A stretch of 64,000 nucleotides of DNA from Flavobacteriaceae bacterium (GTDB taxonomy: Bacteria; Bacteroidota; Bacteroidia; Flavobacteriales; Flavobacteriaceae): assembly GCA_027073495.1 (NCBI GenBank), contig JALSVQ010000017.1, positions 1-64,000 on the forward strand. The letters run 5' to 3'. Position numbers and translations under genes: made by a program. A model generated the notes under the pieces. It saw only the letters and a list, made by a program, of their open reading frames with translations. It was not told the DNA's origin and ran no database searches. Positions within the stretch are counted from its first letter, which is position 1; every line of letters starts with the position of its first letter. Shown one piece after another: positions 27,366 to 34,542 of this stretch.

Positions 27366-27980
27366 ATGCTATTAGTATTACATTTTATTTTAGGAATAAT
27401 CACTTCTTTTTTAGGTTCATTAGCACCAAGCATGCTCAATATGACTGCTGCAAAAATTAGTTTAACCAAAGGTAAAAATGAAGCTATGAAATTTGCTTTT
27501 GCAGTTTCTATTATAGTATTGATACAAGCTTATGTTGCCACTTTATTTACACGCTATTTACGTAAAAATCCTACTTTTGTTCAGTCTTTGCAAAAAATAG
27601 CCTTAGTTATTTTCGCTTTGTTAGCAGTTTATTTTTACTTGCAATTTAAAAAAGATAAAGTAAAAACTACCAAAGATAAAGGTTACAAAAATGCATTTTT
27701 AGTTGGTCTGCTACTTTCGTCTTTAAATATGTTTTCCATTCCATTTTATTGTGGTATTACTACCGCTTTAGATCTTGCAGGTTGGTTGGAGTTTTCGCAA
27801 GTCTATATCATTGCATTTGTTTTTGGTTCGGCTATTGGCACTTTTTTACTTTTATTTATGTATTTAAATTATGCAGAAAAAATACAAGCTAAATCAAAAG
27901 GATTATCAAAAAATTTAAATCTAATTTTAAGTATTTTAACAGGAGTTTTGGCTTTGGTTACTTTGTTTAAAGTGCTTTAA
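27366..27980 (+). CDS. LysE-type translocator family membrane protein
   Basis: 204 residues with six membrane helices. The N-terminus 'LHFILGIITSFLGSLAPSMLNMTAAK' (in part) corresponds to the LysE/RhtB start in which a proline-containing first helix is followed by a small-residue loop; helices 4-6 contain 'GYKNAFLVGLLLSSLNMFSIPFYCG' (in part), again LysE-like. The family exports amino acids or other small metabolites; the substrate is unknown. It stands alone between the decayed and intact copies of the DUF3570 3' end, with no clear terminator after it. Confidence 0.82.
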   Translation: MLLVLHFILGIITSFLGSLAPSMLNMTAAKISLTKGKNEAMKFAFAVSIIVLIQAYVATLFTRYLRKNPTFVQSLQKIALVIFALLAVYFYLQFKKDKVKTTKDKGYKNAFLVGLLLSSLNMFSIPFYCGITTALDLAGWLEFSQVYIIAFVFGSAIGTFLLLFMYLNYAEKIQAKSKGLSKNLNLILSILTGVLALVTLFKVL

Positions 27981-28014: not shown

Positions 28015-29454
28015 TTAATCACCTACAAACTTCATCCCAATACTAACAATATTAGCTTTAAAACCGTTGTCTCGTTGATAATGATTAAAATTAAGTGTCA
28101 TGTTTTTCATTCCAAATTTTCCAATATGGAATTTTGTAAAAATATCACGGTACTTTACACCAAGACCAAACTGGTTAGATGAAAAAGGTGACAAATCATA
28201 ATCTGAAGTGTAATATTGCTCTGTAGAAAGATGTTTCTCATAAGGTGCAAAATAATCAATAGCTGTTTGCGTATAATAACGATAGTTTGGGTAGAGTGTA
28301 AATTTATCACCAAGTTTAATGGGCAATTCTAATTTGACTGTATGAGAGCGCATGCCCCAATCATCGGTATAATAGCGGTAATAGGTTTTAAACACCAAAT
28401 GTTCATTAATATATTGATGAAAACGCATGCCAAAAGGCAATTTTAATCTGCTGCTAGGCAGACGTTCAATATCATCGGAAAGCTGAAAAACACCTTGATT
28501 TTGTTTGGTAGTATAAACAGGGATGTAAGCTGGTGTTCCGATATAAAAATTGGCTTTATCAGCAAAATAAACACGCTGCATCGGACTTGACAACCACCCT
28601 TTTTGCATCACAATATCTGTAAAAAATGAAATTTGAGATTTTTTGCTCAATATTTGAGAAAAACTGAGTGAAACTGAATAGGTATTTCGTGCATTATTCT
28701 CAACTAAATTGGTGCTTACAGCACGCCAAGCATTGGGCGCGCTTTTATTAATGATATAGCCATTTTGATTATAAATTTTCTCGCCATTGAAAAAACCATA
28801 ATTAAGGTTTCCTCCACTGTGTTTGTATTCTATTATTTCAGTTGGATAAACAGGGCGCCAATTGTCTAAATAAATTGTTGCGCTAAGTCCTATTTCGGTA
28901 TTTTTTTGATTGAACTGCTTGCTCAATCCACCTCCAAAACCAAAAGAGAAATAATCAAATTCATTAGAAATACTCATATGTGCTGTACTTATAGTATTTC
29001 TATCATCAGAAGAATGACTGTAGCTAAAATTACCACTTGTCCAAACATCTGATTTTGAAGCTCCAGAAGAAATCAACCAAGGTGAACCGTTTGTGGTGCC
29101 ACCGCCACTATATTCACTAGTGGATGCTCCAGAAAAAGGATTGAGATTGCTCGAAGAAGCTGAACTATACGCAGAAATAGTAGCATCTATAGCCAGTACA
29201 TCGTCATCATTGAGTGGTATAGAAACAGAAATATCTGTGGCTGCATCAACTAACTCTTCTGAGCCAATACCACCGGTAACTGCTGCATTATCTCCATTTT
29301 GTCCATACACACTTCCTAATAAATCTATTTCGGTAGTTTCTAATACGCGTTTTTTATAGGTTTCCGTTTCTTGAGCATAGCTTGTAGCCATACTAATTAC
29401 AAAAAATAATATGCTAATTATTTTTATTTTTATATCGTTTAATTGCATCCACAT
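28015..29454 (-). CDS. DUF3570-family outer-membrane protein
   Basis: 479 residues. Signal sequence (about 10-27, ending ATSYAQ) and a long beta-barrel-like body; the start 'YKKRVLETTEIDLLGSVYGQNGDNAAVTGG' (in part) and 'NDDDVLAIDATISAYSSASSSNLNPFSGAS' (in part) are the DUF3570 hallmarks. The start ATG at 29454 overlaps the DUF4266 gene by 16 bases; an ATG two codons later is an equal candidate. Last gene of the thioredoxin-ApbE-DUF4266-DUF3570 operon. Two SGAS tetrapeptides (about residues 108-111 and 130-133) loosely resemble the ApbE target core but lack the preceding Asp. Function unknown; a decayed duplicate of its 3' end lies at 27157-27300. Confidence 0.92.
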   Translation of the reverse strand: MWMQLNDIKIKIISILFFVISMATSYAQETETYKKRVLETTEIDLLGSVYGQNGDNAAVTGGIGSEELVDAATDISVSIPLNDDDVLAIDATISAYSSASSSNLNPFSGASTSEYSGGGTTNGSPWLISSGASKSDVWTSGNFSYSHSSDDRNTISTAHMSISNEFDYFSFGFGGGLSKQFNQKNTEIGLSATIYLDNWRPVYPTEIIEYKHSGGNLNYGFFNGEKIYNQNGYIINKSAPNAWRAVSTNLVENNARNTYSVSLSFSQILSKKSQISFFTDIVMQKGWLSSPMQRVYFADKANFYIGTPAYIPVYTTKQNQGVFQLSDDIERLPSSRLKLPFGMRFHQYINEHLVFKTYYRYYTDDWGMRSHTVKLELPIKLGDKFTLYPNYRYYTQTAIDYFAPYEKHLSTEQYYTSDYDLSPFSSNQFGLGVKYRDIFTKFHIGKFGMKNMTLNFNHYQRDNGFKANIVSIGMKFVGD

Positions 29455-29651
29455 CCGCCACCAGCTTTACCACCATTGGCACCAGCAGCACCCTCACGAT
29501 AGACTTGAAATGTTGTTTCAAATTTTTGTTCTTTACGAGTTGACAAAGTCATATCAGGATCGTTAATTGTTACTTTCTCATACGGTTTTACTGCTACACA
29601 AGATGATAGGAGTGTAAGCAGTAGCACTGCTGTTAATAATTTATTGACCAT
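29439..29651 (-). CDS. DUF4266-family small lipoprotein with Cys-Gly-Cys tail
   Basis: 70 residues. Lipobox LLSSC (Cys18), then 'AVKPYEKVTINDPDM', the DUF4266 signature, a short polar stretch 'EQKFETTFQVYREGAAGANGG' (in part) and a glycine-rich end GGGCGCN with cysteines at 67 and 69 just before the stop. A lipid-anchored peptide with an exposed CGC tail could bind metal or act as a thiol/redox substrate. It overlaps apbE by 11 bases upstream and the DUF3570 gene by 16 downstream, the tightest packing in this window. Function not established. Confidence 0.9.
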   Translation of the reverse strand: MVNKLLTAVLLLTLLSSCVAVKPYEKVTINDPDMTLSTRKEQKFETTFQVYREGAAGANGGKAGGGCGCN

Positions 29652-30627
29652 TAGTTTTTAGTTTTATAGTATTAGAAGTATGTATTTTTCCTTGATCATC
29701 AATAAGGATGCAAGCTGTATTTTTTAATTGATTAATTCTGTTTAAACCCGTTTCTACACCCATTACAAAAAGTGATGTAGCCAACGCATCTGCAAGTTCT
29801 GCACTTGATGCAAAAACACTCGCACTGATTATACCCGAAGCAGGAACACCTGTTCTCGGATCAATAATATGCGAATAGCGTTTGCCATTAAAAACAACGT
29901 ATTTTTCATAGTTTCCCGAAGTTACAATAGCACCTCGTTTTAAAGGCAATACAGCAAATGCTTTGTGTTTATTCATTGGGTTGGTTATTGCTACTTCCCA
30001 ATACTTCCCATTAGGTTGTTTGCCCCAAGTGTTCATATCTCCAGAAGCATTAATTATACCTGCTTTTACTCCTTTAGATTGTAAGAGTTTTTTGGCAGTA
30101 TCAGCTGCATAGCCTTTACCAATAGCTCCAAAACCGATACGCATTCCTTTTAGTTTAAGAAATACACTGTGGTCTTGACCATTCATTATGATGTTTTTAT
30201 AACCTACTTTAGATACAGAAGCAGCGATAGCTGCAGCACTAGGAAAAGTCTTCATAGAACCATCAAATTTCCATATTTTATCCATTGATGCGTAACTAAT
30301 ATCAAATGCGCCATCGGTAAGCTTCGATATTAATTTTGCACGGCTAATGAGATTAAACAGCTCTTCACTTACAACTACAGGTTTAATACCTGCATTGGCA
30401 TTGATTCGAGAGGTTTCTGAAGTGCTATCCCAAGAAGATATCAGTTTTTCTATACGTTTTATCTCAGTAATAGCGTCTTGAATACGCAACTGGGCAATAC
30501 TATCATTTTGGCAAACTACTGTTATTCCAAAATCGGAACCCATAAGGAGTAACTTTTTTTGAAAAACCTGCTGTGCTTGTGTTGTGTTTACAAAAGTAAA
30601 TAGGAATAGTATCAATGCTTTTTTCAT
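29641..30627 (-). CDS. apbE: ApbE-family FAD:protein FMN transferase
   Basis: 328 residues with a signal peptide (FVNTTQAQ). ApbE features: 'MGSDFGITVVCQ', 'EIKRIEKLISSWDSTSETSRIN', 'DGAFDISYASMDKIWKF', 'GFGAIGKGYAADTAKKLL', 'INASGDMNTWG', and the Mg-binding 'YSHIIDPRTGVPA' (in parts). ApbE covalently attaches FMN to Ser/Thr of extracytoplasmic proteins. Cotranscribed with a thioredoxin-fold protein (four-base gap) and two DUF proteins. No Nqr/Rnf subunit or FMN-binding protein with a clear DxxSGAT motif is encoded nearby, so the target is not obvious. Confidence 0.95.
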   Translation of the reverse strand: MKKALILFLFTFVNTTQAQQVFQKKLLLMGSDFGITVVCQNDSIAQLRIQDAITEIKRIEKLISSWDSTSETSRINANAGIKPVVVSEELFNLISRAKLISKLTDGAFDISYASMDKIWKFDGSMKTFPSAAAIAASVSKVGYKNIIMNGQDHSVFLKLKGMRIGFGAIGKGYAADTAKKLLQSKGVKAGIINASGDMNTWGKQPNGKYWEVAITNPMNKHKAFAVLPLKRGAIVTSGNYEKYVVFNGKRYSHIIDPRTGVPASGIISASVFASSAELADALATSLFVMGVETGLNRINQLKNTACILIDDQGKIHTSNTIKLKTNGQ

Positions 30628-30631
30628 GGTA

Positions 30632-31066
30632 TCAGAATGCGTTTAATAATTCAAAGTAATCTGTTGGTGTTCGGTTTCTATCATAGCTTGTACTGCCTAA
30701 AACCTTACCGTTTTTATCCAATACAACAACATAAGGAAAATAGCCATGAGGATTGTATTGCGCTGCTAAGATATCATTTTTTTCTTGTTGTGCTTTTGCT
30801 AATTGGTTTTTCTTTTTTCTTGGAAAATCTGCTTTAAGCATTACAAATTTACCTTTAGCCAGTTTTTGAAAAGTCGTTGAATTCCAAATGGTACGTTCGA
30901 GTTTTATACAAGGCGCGCACCAATCAGAACCTTGAAACACGAGTATTATTTTTTGATTATTATTTTGTGCTTTTTTTTGCGCTTGTGCAAGGTCGTAATT
31001 CCAGTCTTGCGCTTGTACGTTGATTATGCTTAATAATAGAATAAATAAGAAGATTGCTTTTTTCAT
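30632..31066 (-). CDS. Thioredoxin-fold periplasmic protein
   Basis: 144 residues with a signal peptide (MKKAIFLFILLLSIINVQAQ) and a thioredoxin domain; the active site is 'GSDWCAPCIKLE' (CxxC, about residues 51-54), with a cis-Pro equivalent in 'HGYFPYVVVLD'. The sequence style ('LAKGKFVMLKADFPRKKKN') is that of the thioredoxin_7/DUF255-like group. First gene of the ApbE operon. It probably keeps thiols of a partner reduced or exchanges disulfides; the CGC tail of the DUF4266 protein is a natural candidate, by inference. Confidence 0.92.
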   Translation of the reverse strand: MKKAIFLFILLLSIINVQAQDWNYDLAQAQKKAQNNNQKIILVFQGSDWCAPCIKLERTIWNSTTFQKLAKGKFVMLKADFPRKKKNQLAKAQQEKNDILAAQYNPHGYFPYVVVLDKNGKVLGSTSYDRNRTPTDYFELLNAF

Positions 31067-31334: not shown

Positions 31335-33698
31335 ATGAAAAAGGTTTTAGTATTATTAGTGCTTATAAGCTTGCAAAGCTATGGGCAAGAACACACCTTT
31401 AGTGGTAGAATAGTCAATCAATTAGACGGTGAAACATTATTTGGCGCAACGGTTTCCACTTCAGATTTTAAATATGGAACGGTTACCAATGAATATGGCT
31501 ACTATACATTAAACATTCCTGATGGAAATTATACCATAGTTTTTAGTAACATGGGCTTTGAAACACTACAAAAAGAAATTACTATAAATAATAATCAAGT
31601 TCTTAATGTAGCACTCAAAGAGGCTATTAACCAAATAGAAGGAGTAACAATATCTGCTCAAGAAGCACACGTCAAAGACAAGATACGCAAACCACAAATG
31701 AGTGTAACCAAACTCAGTGTCAAAACCATAAAACTGGCTCCTGTAGTACTAGGAGAAACTGATATTTTAAAAACCATCACCTTACTGCCTGGAGTAACCA
31801 ATAGTGGCGAAGGAAGTTCAGGATTTAATGTTCGTGGCGGCGCTGCCGATCAAAACCTTGTGTTATTAGATGAAGCTACTATCTATAATACGTCACATCT
31901 TTTTGGTTTTTTCTCTGTTTTTAATGCTGATGCTATTAAAGACATAAACCTTTACAAAGGAGGTATTCCTGCCAAATATGGAGGTCGCATTTCATCGGTT
32001 TTAGATGTTCGCCAAAAAGATGGAAACAATAAAGCATTTCATACTAATGGTGGTATAGGACTTATATCAAGCAGATTACTAGTAGAAGGACCGCTCAAAA
32101 AAGATAAAGCGTCATTTCTTTTTGCAGGACGTACTTCTTATGTCAACGTTTTTCTCAAATTAGCCAACAAAGAACCTCGTACTTCTTTTTATGATTTGAA
32201 TACTAAGCTTTCTTATCTGTTTAATACGAATAATAAATTGTATTTATCAGGGTATTTTGGTAGGGATAATTTTAAATTACCTTTTTTTGATAATAGCTAT
32301 GGTAACAACACGTTCAATTTAAGATGGAATCATTTATTTAATCCACGATTATTCTCCAATCTATCATTAATTTATAGTAAATATAATTATAGATTGTCAT
32401 TTAATACACTTGATTTTCAATGGGATTCTGATATCGTTGACCTCAACATAAAATACGATTTCAAATACAGTATCAATGAGCAATATAAACTGAATTTTGG
32501 ATTGAATTTTAACAAATACACCTTTAATCCAGGTGAAATAACAGCTACAAGTAGTACATCAGTCATTAACCCGGAAAAACTTGCAGATAAATATGCTTAT
32601 GAACCTGCACTCTATGCCGAATTAGAACATAAGATTTCTAACAAACTAAATCTACGTTATGGCTTACGCCTAAGTTCTTTTTTTAGAATGGGCAAGCAGA
32701 CCTTAAACGTATATCAAAACAATCAAGCCGTAGTCTATAATAGCAATCTTGATATTTATGAAAGTGGTACTGTCATTGGCGAAAAAAACTATACTAAAGG
32801 CGAAACAATACAATCTTTTGCTGGCTTAGAACCTCGCTTTTCTTTGGCGTATCAACTTAATGAAAAGAGTTCTTTTAAGGCAAGTTTCCAACACATCAAC
32901 CAATATTTACATTTAATATCCAATACCAATTCAGCAACTCCTCTTGATGTTTGGGCACCAAGTGGAACGTTTATAGCCCCTGAAAAATCAAATCAATATG
33001 CTATTGGCTATTTTAAAAATTGGAAAGACGATACGTATTCTTTAGAAGTAGAAAGTTATTATAAAACCATTACAGACAAACTAGATTATAGAGATGGTGC
33101 TGACCTTATAGCTAATGATCATCTTGAAACCGAAATTTTGGCAGGAGATGCTCGTGCTTATGGTTTAGAGGTTTTAGTGCGAAAGAATAAAGGCAAACTA
33201 ACCGGTTGGGTAAGCTATACATTGAGCAAATCAGAACAACGTGTTTTAGGGCGAACACCGTTAGAAACTGGTATTAATAACGGAAACTGGTATAATACGC
33301 CTTACGACAGAACACATGATATTTCTATAACAGGAAGCTATGCACTCAATAAAAAATGGAAATTTAGTAGTAATTTTATTTTTCAAACAGGAAGACCTAC
33401 TAACTACCCTTCGGGACGCTATCAATTTGGAGGAATTACTGTTCCTGTTTTTGTAACGCGTAATGCAGAGCGTTTGCCTGCTTACCATCGCTTGGACATT
33501 GCTGCTACGCTTACACCAAGTAATAATAAAGGACGCAACTGGAAGAGCGAATGGGTTTTTGGTATTTACAATCTCTATGGTAGAAAAAATGCAGCTTCTA
33601 TTACCTTTCAAGAGAATCCAACAACGCATCTTAATGAAGCTGTTCGTACATCAATTTTTGGTTTTATGCCAGCAATAACTTACAATTTCAAATTCTAA
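31335..33698 (+). CDS. TonB-dependent receptor with carboxypeptidase-like N-domain
   Basis: 787 residues: signal peptide (about 1-17), a CarboxypepD_reg-like domain (about 20-105: 'FSGRIVNQLDGETLFGATV', 'YGYYTLNIPDGNYTIVFSNMGFE' in part), a plug domain (about 120-230: 'LPGVTNSGEGSSGFNVRGGAADQNLVLLD' in part) and a 22-strand barrel ending 'GFMPAITYNFKF'. It imports a large substrate across the outer membrane with TonB energy; the substrate is not predictable. The next gene, a DUF4249 lipoprotein, is its usual partner. Fully intact. Confidence 0.95.
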   Translation: MKKVLVLLVLISLQSYGQEHTFSGRIVNQLDGETLFGATVSTSDFKYGTVTNEYGYYTLNIPDGNYTIVFSNMGFETLQKEITINNNQVLNVALKEAINQIEGVTISAQEAHVKDKIRKPQMSVTKLSVKTIKLAPVVLGETDILKTITLLPGVTNSGEGSSGFNVRGGAADQNLVLLDEATIYNTSHLFGFFSVFNADAIKDINLYKGGIPAKYGGRISSVLDVRQKDGNNKAFHTNGGIGLISSRLLVEGPLKKDKASFLFAGRTSYVNVFLKLANKEPRTSFYDLNTKLSYLFNTNNKLYLSGYFGRDNFKLPFFDNSYGNNTFNLRWNHLFNPRLFSNLSLIYSKYNYRLSFNTLDFQWDSDIVDLNIKYDFKYSINEQYKLNFGLNFNKYTFNPGEITATSSTSVINPEKLADKYAYEPALYAELEHKISNKLNLRYGLRLSSFFRMGKQTLNVYQNNQAVVYNSNLDIYESGTVIGEKNYTKGETIQSFAGLEPRFSLAYQLNEKSSFKASFQHINQYLHLISNTNSATPLDVWAPSGTFIAPEKSNQYAIGYFKNWKDDTYSLEVESYYKTITDKLDYRDGADLIANDHLETEILAGDARAYGLEVLVRKNKGKLTGWVSYTLSKSEQRVLGRTPLETGINNGNWYNTPYDRTHDISITGSYALNKKWKFSSNFIFQTGRPTNYPSGRYQFGGITVPVFVTRNAERLPAYHRLDIAATLTPSNNKGRNWKSEWVFGIYNLYGRKNAASITFQENPTTHLNEAVRTSIFGFMPAITYNFKF

Positions 33699-33708
33699 AA
33701 ACATAATT

Positions 33709-34542
33709 ATGAAAACACTAAAAATAATAGCAATATCACTTTTTTTAATATCACTTAATGCCTGTGAAGATGTGGTAGATGTAGATTTACAAACTGGACA
33801 CGAACGCCTTGTTATTGAAGCTTTCATTGGATGGGATGAAGGTACAGCAGGAAATGAACAATCTATTCTGTTGACCAAAACAGCTTCTTTTTATACCAAT
33901 GAGATTGTTTATGCAACAGGAGCTCAAGTGAAAATAACAAATCTAGATACTACAAGTGAATTCGTTTTTACAGAAAATACGCCTGGAAACTATGAAACAT
34001 CAAGTTTTGTACCAATAGCAGGAAACCACTACCGTTTGGATATTGTTTATAATGGCGCATCATATAGTGGAGAAGAAACGCTATTGCCAACTCCAACTAT
34101 TAGCACGGTAGATCAATCTGTTACAGATGGATTTAGCAGTACTGAACCTGAGATAAACATCTATTTTCAAGATTATGCTAATGAAGAAAATTTTTATAGA
34201 ATAGTAATCGATCAAAGCAGGCCGAGTTCAAGTGATGTATTTCCTACGGATCAATACAACTATAGTGATGAATTTCAAGATGGTGCACTATTAAAAGATT
34301 TTTATGAAAGTGATGATATAGAGGTTGGAGATGTTTTTGATATTACACTATATAGTATTTCTCCAAGATTTAATTATTTTTTAGAGCTTATTACAGAACA
34401 ATCAAATAGTGGTTTTGGACCTTTTTCTAGTCCACCTGTTAATGTAAAAGGTAATTGTGTGAACACATCAAATCAAGAGGATTATCCTTATGGTTATTTT
34501 GCATTAACGCAAGTAAGTCATGCCTCATATATTTTTCAATAA
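33709..34542 (+). CDS. DUF4249-family lipoprotein, partner of the TonB receptor
   Basis: 277 residues. Lipobox SLNAC, then the DUF4249 start 'EDVVDVDLQTGHERLVIEAFI' (in part), which is highly characteristic, a beta-rich N-terminal half and a less conserved C-terminal half ending 'GYFALTQVSHASYIFQ'. DUF4249 proteins are surface or periplasmic lipoproteins that accompany TonB receptors in Bacteroidota, analogous in position to SusD. Ten bases downstream of the receptor gene. Its stop codon is one base from the convergent dinB stop. Confidence 0.9.
   Translation: MKTLKIIAISLFLISLNACEDVVDVDLQTGHERLVIEAFIGWDEGTAGNEQSILLTKTASFYTNEIVYATGAQVKITNLDTTSEFVFTENTPGNYETSSFVPIAGNHYRLDIVYNGASYSGEETLLPTPTISTVDQSVTDGFSSTEPEINIYFQDYANEENFYRIVIDQSRPSSSDVFPTDQYNYSDEFQDGALLKDFYESDDIEVGDVFDITLYSISPRFNYFLELITEQSNSGFGPFSSPPVNVKGNCVNTSNQEDYPYGYFALTQVSHASYIFQ

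Follow-up and report, generated by a model that had tools for sequence, protein, structure and literature searches.

A Thioredoxin–ApbE–DUF4266–DUF3570 Operon of Bacteroidota as a Candidate Thiol and Flavin Electron-Transfer Module of the Cell Envelope

Introduction

ApbE, DUF3570, a thioredoxin-like family (PF13899) and DUF4266 have been described as parts of one system (Méheust et al. 2021, eLife; PMC8238504). In the "DsbD systems" of that work the same four Pfam families are clustered, and they include a variant without adjacent DsbD, for which 316 clusters of the four-family set were counted. The authors noted a conserved C-terminal CXC in DUF4266, showed that the DUF3570 protein of Chlorobium luteolum is flavinylated by its cognate ApbE at two [S/T]GA[S/T] sites, and proposed DsbD as the electron source, together with redox cycling of the CXC cysteines. 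The main text of PMC8238504 contains none of the words "barrel", "lipoprotein" and "Rieske", does not describe DUF3570 as a barrel of the outer membrane and reports no fixed spacing between the lipid anchor and the tail cysteines of DUF4266. In a 2024 follow-up on flavinylation structures, DUF3570 is not treated.

Two further kinds of known system invite comparison. The FMN_bind proteins flavinylated by ApbE (NqrC, RnfG) carry FMN on Ser or Thr, as the flavinylated DUF3570 of C. luteolum does, but they have another fold and belong to another membrane. Porin–cytochrome conduits of the MtrCAB type combine an outer-membrane barrel, redox cofactors and a periplasmic donor, and DUF3570 would be alike in mode of action if the proposal made below is right. 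These conduits use haem, in a multihaem cytochrome inside the barrel, whereas the proposed route would use flavin and a dithiol, and no cytochrome was found among the four operon genes; the likeness is one of mode of action, and beyond the generic barrel fold no homology was seen or sought.

Gene Organization and Conservation of the Operon

The window analyzed here, a stretch of 64,000 nucleotides from a Flavobacteriaceae bacterium, contains genes for a thioredoxin-like protein, ApbE, DUF4266 and DUF3570, whose order and position on the minus strand (31066–28015) were verified from the open reading frames and their coordinates. The genes follow one another with a 4-base gap and then overlaps of 11 and 16 bases, and all four proteins have a signal-peptide-like N-terminus, as read from the sequence (Table 1).

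Table 1. Coordinates of the operon genes and of the sites discussed in the text (window positions).
Feature	Position	Strand	Evidence
Exported thioredoxin-like protein, 144 aa, GSDWCAPC, DsbH-like	30632..31066	-	PF13899 Thioredoxin_7, E=5e-14
CxxC active site CAPC, residues 50-53 of the thioredoxin-like protein	30908..30919	-	Sequence; conservation
ApbE, exported FAD:protein FMN transferase, 328 aa	29641..30627	-	PF02424, E=1.8e-85
DUF4266 lipoprotein, 70 aa (53 aa after maturation)	29439..29651	-	PF14086, E=8.7e-21
Lipobox Cys18 of DUF4266 (lipid anchor)	29598..29600	-	Invariant 61/61
Tail CGC (C67-G68-C69) of DUF4266	29445..29453	-	Invariant 61/61 and 80/80
DUF3570, 479 aa, predicted outer-membrane beta-barrel of 16 strands and predicted ApbE substrate	28015..29454	-	PF12094, E=1.8e-41
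Predicted flavinylation site 1, SSAS, DUF3570 residues 97-100, extracellular end of strand 3	29155..29166	-	
Predicted flavinylation site 2, SGAS, DUF3570 residues 130-133, same extracellular-side loop	29056..29067	-	
Extra SGAS, DUF3570 residues 108-111, variable insert; possible third site, not conserved	29122..29133	-	

The clustering of ApbE, DUF3570, Thioredoxin_7-like and DUF4266 proteins is the same as in PMC8238504, and the C-terminal CXC of that system is present as CGC in the window DUF4266 and in all 141 DUF4266 sequences compared. The four-gene system is thus already described, and the window copy is a member of it with a degenerate first flavin site: its DUF3570 has SSAS and SGAS, as against the two [S/T]GA[S/T] sites of the published protein. 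The first-pass annotation had proposed a possibly undescribed thiol and flavin redox system. Its redox character agrees with PMC8238504 and with the tests reported here, but its novelty has to be given up, as the four families were named there as one system and flavinylation of DUF3570 was tested; the suspicion that the gene set might be listed in surveys of ApbE neighborhoods is borne out by the same paper. Within the open-licence main texts, the features that look new are the geometry of the barrel and the constant length of the DUF4266 arm.

Among 396 sampled genomes of the phylum, DUF4266 occurs in 113 and DUF3570 in 118. When the two lists were compared by eye, all 113 DUF4266 genomes fell within the 118, and no DUF4266 without DUF3570 was found in the sample; the two genes are adjacent in nearly all loci. 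Gene order was followed in 61 loci located with the DUF4266 profile and in 80 named loci fetched by peptide patterns; because one pattern includes the tail, this set is biased for it. The second set spans Flavobacterium, Chryseobacterium, Pedobacter, Mucilaginibacter, Chitinophaga, Cyclobacterium and others. The two sets have a few loci in common, and their counts follow shared descent rather than independent events. The order thioredoxin–ApbE–DUF4266–DUF3570 is found in 44 of the 61 and 67 of the 80 loci, and 10 deep-branching loci of the 61 have the order DUF4266–DUF3570–ApbE, in several cases with DsbD next. In family f18, the cluster is followed by a gene for DsbD fused to a thioredoxin domain. 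The co-occurrence of the four genes, on which the earlier reading had been staked, holds across the loci examined and is not accidental.

An expansion of the DUF3570 family is suggested in the genomes of family f18, where up to nine profile matches per genome were recorded (e.g., G197 and G328), some of them probably split matches. A gene for a Rieske [2Fe-2S] lipoprotein-like protein lies directly upstream of the thioredoxin gene in 10 of the 61 loci (L038, L040, L044–L048, L051, L053 and L060), and also in L160 and L174; PF00355 is matched in L045 and L040, and the protein of L060 lacks one cluster ligand.

Flavinylation Sites in DUF3570

Since the Chlorobium DUF3570 is flavinylated by its own ApbE (PMC8238504), the target of the window ApbE is very probably DUF3570, in which the usual ApbE motif has degenerated. 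In 54 aligned DUF3570 sequences, A99 and S100 of site 1 are invariant while the rest of the loop varies, and the site reads [ST]SAS in 49 sequences and TAAS in the other five. The SSAS of the window copy is a Gly-to-Ser variant which also lacks the motif Asp. It is a plausible flavinylation site as judged from its sequence, since replacement of the motif Gly by Ala keeps about 50% of flavinylation and replacement of the Asp by Ala has a minor effect (PMC12052999). Site 2 (residues 130–133) reads SSAS in 20, SGAS in 16, TSAS in two and TGAS in one of the 54 sequences, and in deep-branching relatives both positions are occupied by an intact Dxx[S/T]GAS.

The first-pass annotation had pointed to two SGAS sites without Asp in DUF3570 and to a non-canonical flavinylation target. 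The SGAS at 130–133 is conserved, whereas the one at 108–111 lies in a variable insert (missing from 40 of 54 sequences, SGAS in eight) and the invariant SSAS at 97–100 had been overlooked. DUF3570 stands as the probable target, but its motif is a worn form of the usual one rather than a different kind of site.

It had also been allowed that a canonical target elsewhere might fully explain the operon apbE. The window genome has two ApbE genes, one in the operon and one on contig C28, a single FMN_bind protein (NqrC, contig C7) and a single VIT1 (contig C67). The second ApbE on C28 and the NqrB/NqrC pair on C7 do not account for the operon gene, and this explanation was set aside. On contig C7 (L034), NqrC has DAISGST and the preceding NqrB-like protein DAISGET, the motif Ala being replaced in both.

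Predicted Barrel Structure of DUF3570

The window DUF3570 was modeled with AlphaFold2 from the 54-sequence alignment as a 16-stranded barrel (mean pLDDT 84.4, pTM 0.81), and a second DUF3570, 34% identical, also gave 16 strands (pLDDT 86.9), with the flavin loop after strand 3 in both; the alignments behind the two models overlap, and the models are not fully independent. In the window model the mean length is about 24 residues for the loops that follow odd strands and about five for the turns that follow even strands, and parts of the flavin loop have pLDDT below 50. The barrel is closed and has an even number of strands in both models, its turns being short on the periplasmic side and its loops long on the outer side, as in outer-membrane beta-barrels. 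DUF3570 is likely a 16-stranded outer-membrane barrel, in agreement with the "barrel-like" protein of the first-pass annotation. No solved relative was found by sequence. Foldseek searches with the model returned FadL, OccK, OmpG and AlgE, with E about 1e-9 for FadL and porins; these matches indicate resemblance to a barrel and not a family assignment, because the TM-scores, at about 0.35–0.45 over the query, are no more than modest.

The usual rule for barrels, by which long loops lie outside and short turns inside, would probably place the flavin loop (residues 99–132) on the extracellular side, as the odd-numbered loops are long and the even turns short. Conservation of lumen-facing positions is 0.84 in the outer half of the barrel vs. 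0.65 in the inner half, and about 0.55 at lipid-facing positions, with inward and outward positions assigned from hydrophobicity and not from coordinates.

These data bear on a relay confined to the periplasm, in which the flavins of an outer-membrane DUF3570 would act towards the periplasm. Together with thioredoxin and DUF4266 they would supply or remove electrons for a periplasmic enzyme, and no electrons would cross the outer membrane. Every partner of DUF3570 is predicted to be periplasmic, and the Rieske lipoprotein gene upstream of thioredoxin in 10 of the 61 relatives would fit a periplasmic chain. Nevertheless, both models have the flavin loop after an odd-numbered strand, where the long loops lie, and the lumen is better conserved towards that end. 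We regard the periplasmic relay as rather unlikely, although it is the strongest of the alternatives.

The DUF4266 Lipoprotein Arm

The C-terminus of the window DUF4266 reads GGGCGCN. The distance from the lipid-anchor Cys to the first tail Cys is exactly 49 residues in 140 of 141 DUF4266 proteins, and 138 of them have 53 residues when mature; the thioredoxin tail in the same set ranges from 94 to 104 residues, a ten-residue spread. The conservation of the tail cysteines, which the first-pass annotation had put up for examination, is complete in both locus sets, and its view of the CGC lipoprotein as a thiol partner agrees with this and with PMC8238504. For the metal-carrier role that had been offered beside it, the evidence neither supports nor excludes it.

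Surface-exposed lipoproteins of Bacteroidota carry an acidic export signal (LES) after the lipidated Cys (PMC5080379), and DUF4266 differs from them in this respect: a paired acidic signal at +2 to +7 was found in none of the 141 sequences. Because of this, DUF4266 is probably anchored on the periplasmic face. As a matter of arithmetic, a chain of fifty extended residues could span the barrel.

The Thioredoxin-Like Protein and Its Electron Supply

In the thioredoxin-like protein the motif GSDWCxPC is invariant in 47 relatives, with C50, P52 and C53 present in 47/47, and the nearest PDB neighbor is 2ju5, a thioredoxin disulfide isomerase (E=1.5e-14). DsbD lies outside the cluster in the window locus, and neither DsbD_TM nor DsbD_N was matched in the window genome, the assembly of which is 88.6% complete; a search of the genus for further assemblies bearing on this point returned only the window genome. 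It might be supposed from this result that thioredoxin is fed otherwise in the window organism, for example from the quinol pool through a putative membrane protein, or that the chain runs in the oxidizing direction. This seems improbable, as DsbD_TM is present in 51/51 relatives tested and about 11% of the genome is missing from the assembly, which makes a missing contig a simpler reason than absence of DsbD from the organism. Loss of DsbD in this species is not claimed here, given the incomplete assembly.

A Proposed Electron Relay across the Outer Membrane

On balance, we favor the operon as an envelope electron-transfer module, in which electrons would pass from thioredoxin through a dithiol arm to flavins and, by a proposed last step, across the outer membrane. 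By analogy with C. luteolum, ApbE would very probably act in the periplasm and attach FMN to the Ser residues of SSAS and SGAS before or during insertion of the barrel; placement of FMN in an extracellular loop would mean that ApbE must act before insertion. In the 16-stranded barrel so modeled, the flavins would lie either on the loop at the extracellular side or within the lumen, in its outer half. The thioredoxin-like protein, for which DsbD is normally the reductant, would then reduce the CGC of DUF4266, a step that we hold to be reasonably likely. DUF4266, anchored in the outer membrane and facing the periplasm, might bring its CGC to or into the barrel by means of the 53-residue, fixed-length arm and pass electrons to the flavins; this is a tentative suggestion, for which the length and the anchoring of DUF4266 are the evidence. 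Finally, the flavins could conceivably pass electrons to a substrate outside the cell or in the outer membrane, ferric iron being one candidate, although we consider this doubtful; iron is named because of VIT1 neighbors, a weak inference, as VIT1 is near the operon in only 13 of the 61 and 17 of the 80 loci and does not adjoin the operon of the window.

In its most specific form, the proposal is that DUF3570 and DUF4266 make up a haem-free outer-membrane conduit, with the lipid-anchored dithiol arm reaching into the flavinylated barrel and delivering thioredoxin electrons to the surface, and it is put forward as a speculative possibility. If the barrel flavins do face outward and are fed by the dithiol lipoprotein, many Bacteroidota would have a haem-free electron route to the surface. 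With the outer-membrane geometry and the fixed-length arm, a function that had been uncertain becomes a specific proposal open to test.

Least probable is a thiol repair or biogenesis module, in which thioredoxin would keep the CGC of DUF4266 reduced for assembly of DUF3570 or for delivery of a metal (copper, iron or zinc), leaving flavin as the sole redox center of the final product: CGC resembles small metal-binding thiol motifs, DUF4266 does not occur without DUF3570 in any sampled genome and its fixed length suits a docking arm, but the window DUF3570 and, in all, 29 of the 54 sequences have no Cys and hence no disulfide to repair, the recurrent neighbors were not noticed to include a copper gene, and the lineages with DsbD in the cluster better fit a steady electron supply.

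Genes Adjacent to the Operon

A divergent TonB-dependent receptor with a carboxypeptidase-like domain, followed by a DUF4249 protein, occupies positions 31335–34542 of the window; these genes were rejected as operon members on account of their divergent transcription and their absence among recurrent neighbors. On the other side, a gene convergent with the operon (27366–27980) encodes a membrane protein of 204 aa with no Pfam match above the cut-off, which by eye we take to be LysE-like. It was discarded as a substitute for DsbD, having one Cys and no family match above the cut-off. In the clade of L035–L042, a response regulator and a sensor histidine kinase are encoded directly downstream of DUF3570 on the same strand.
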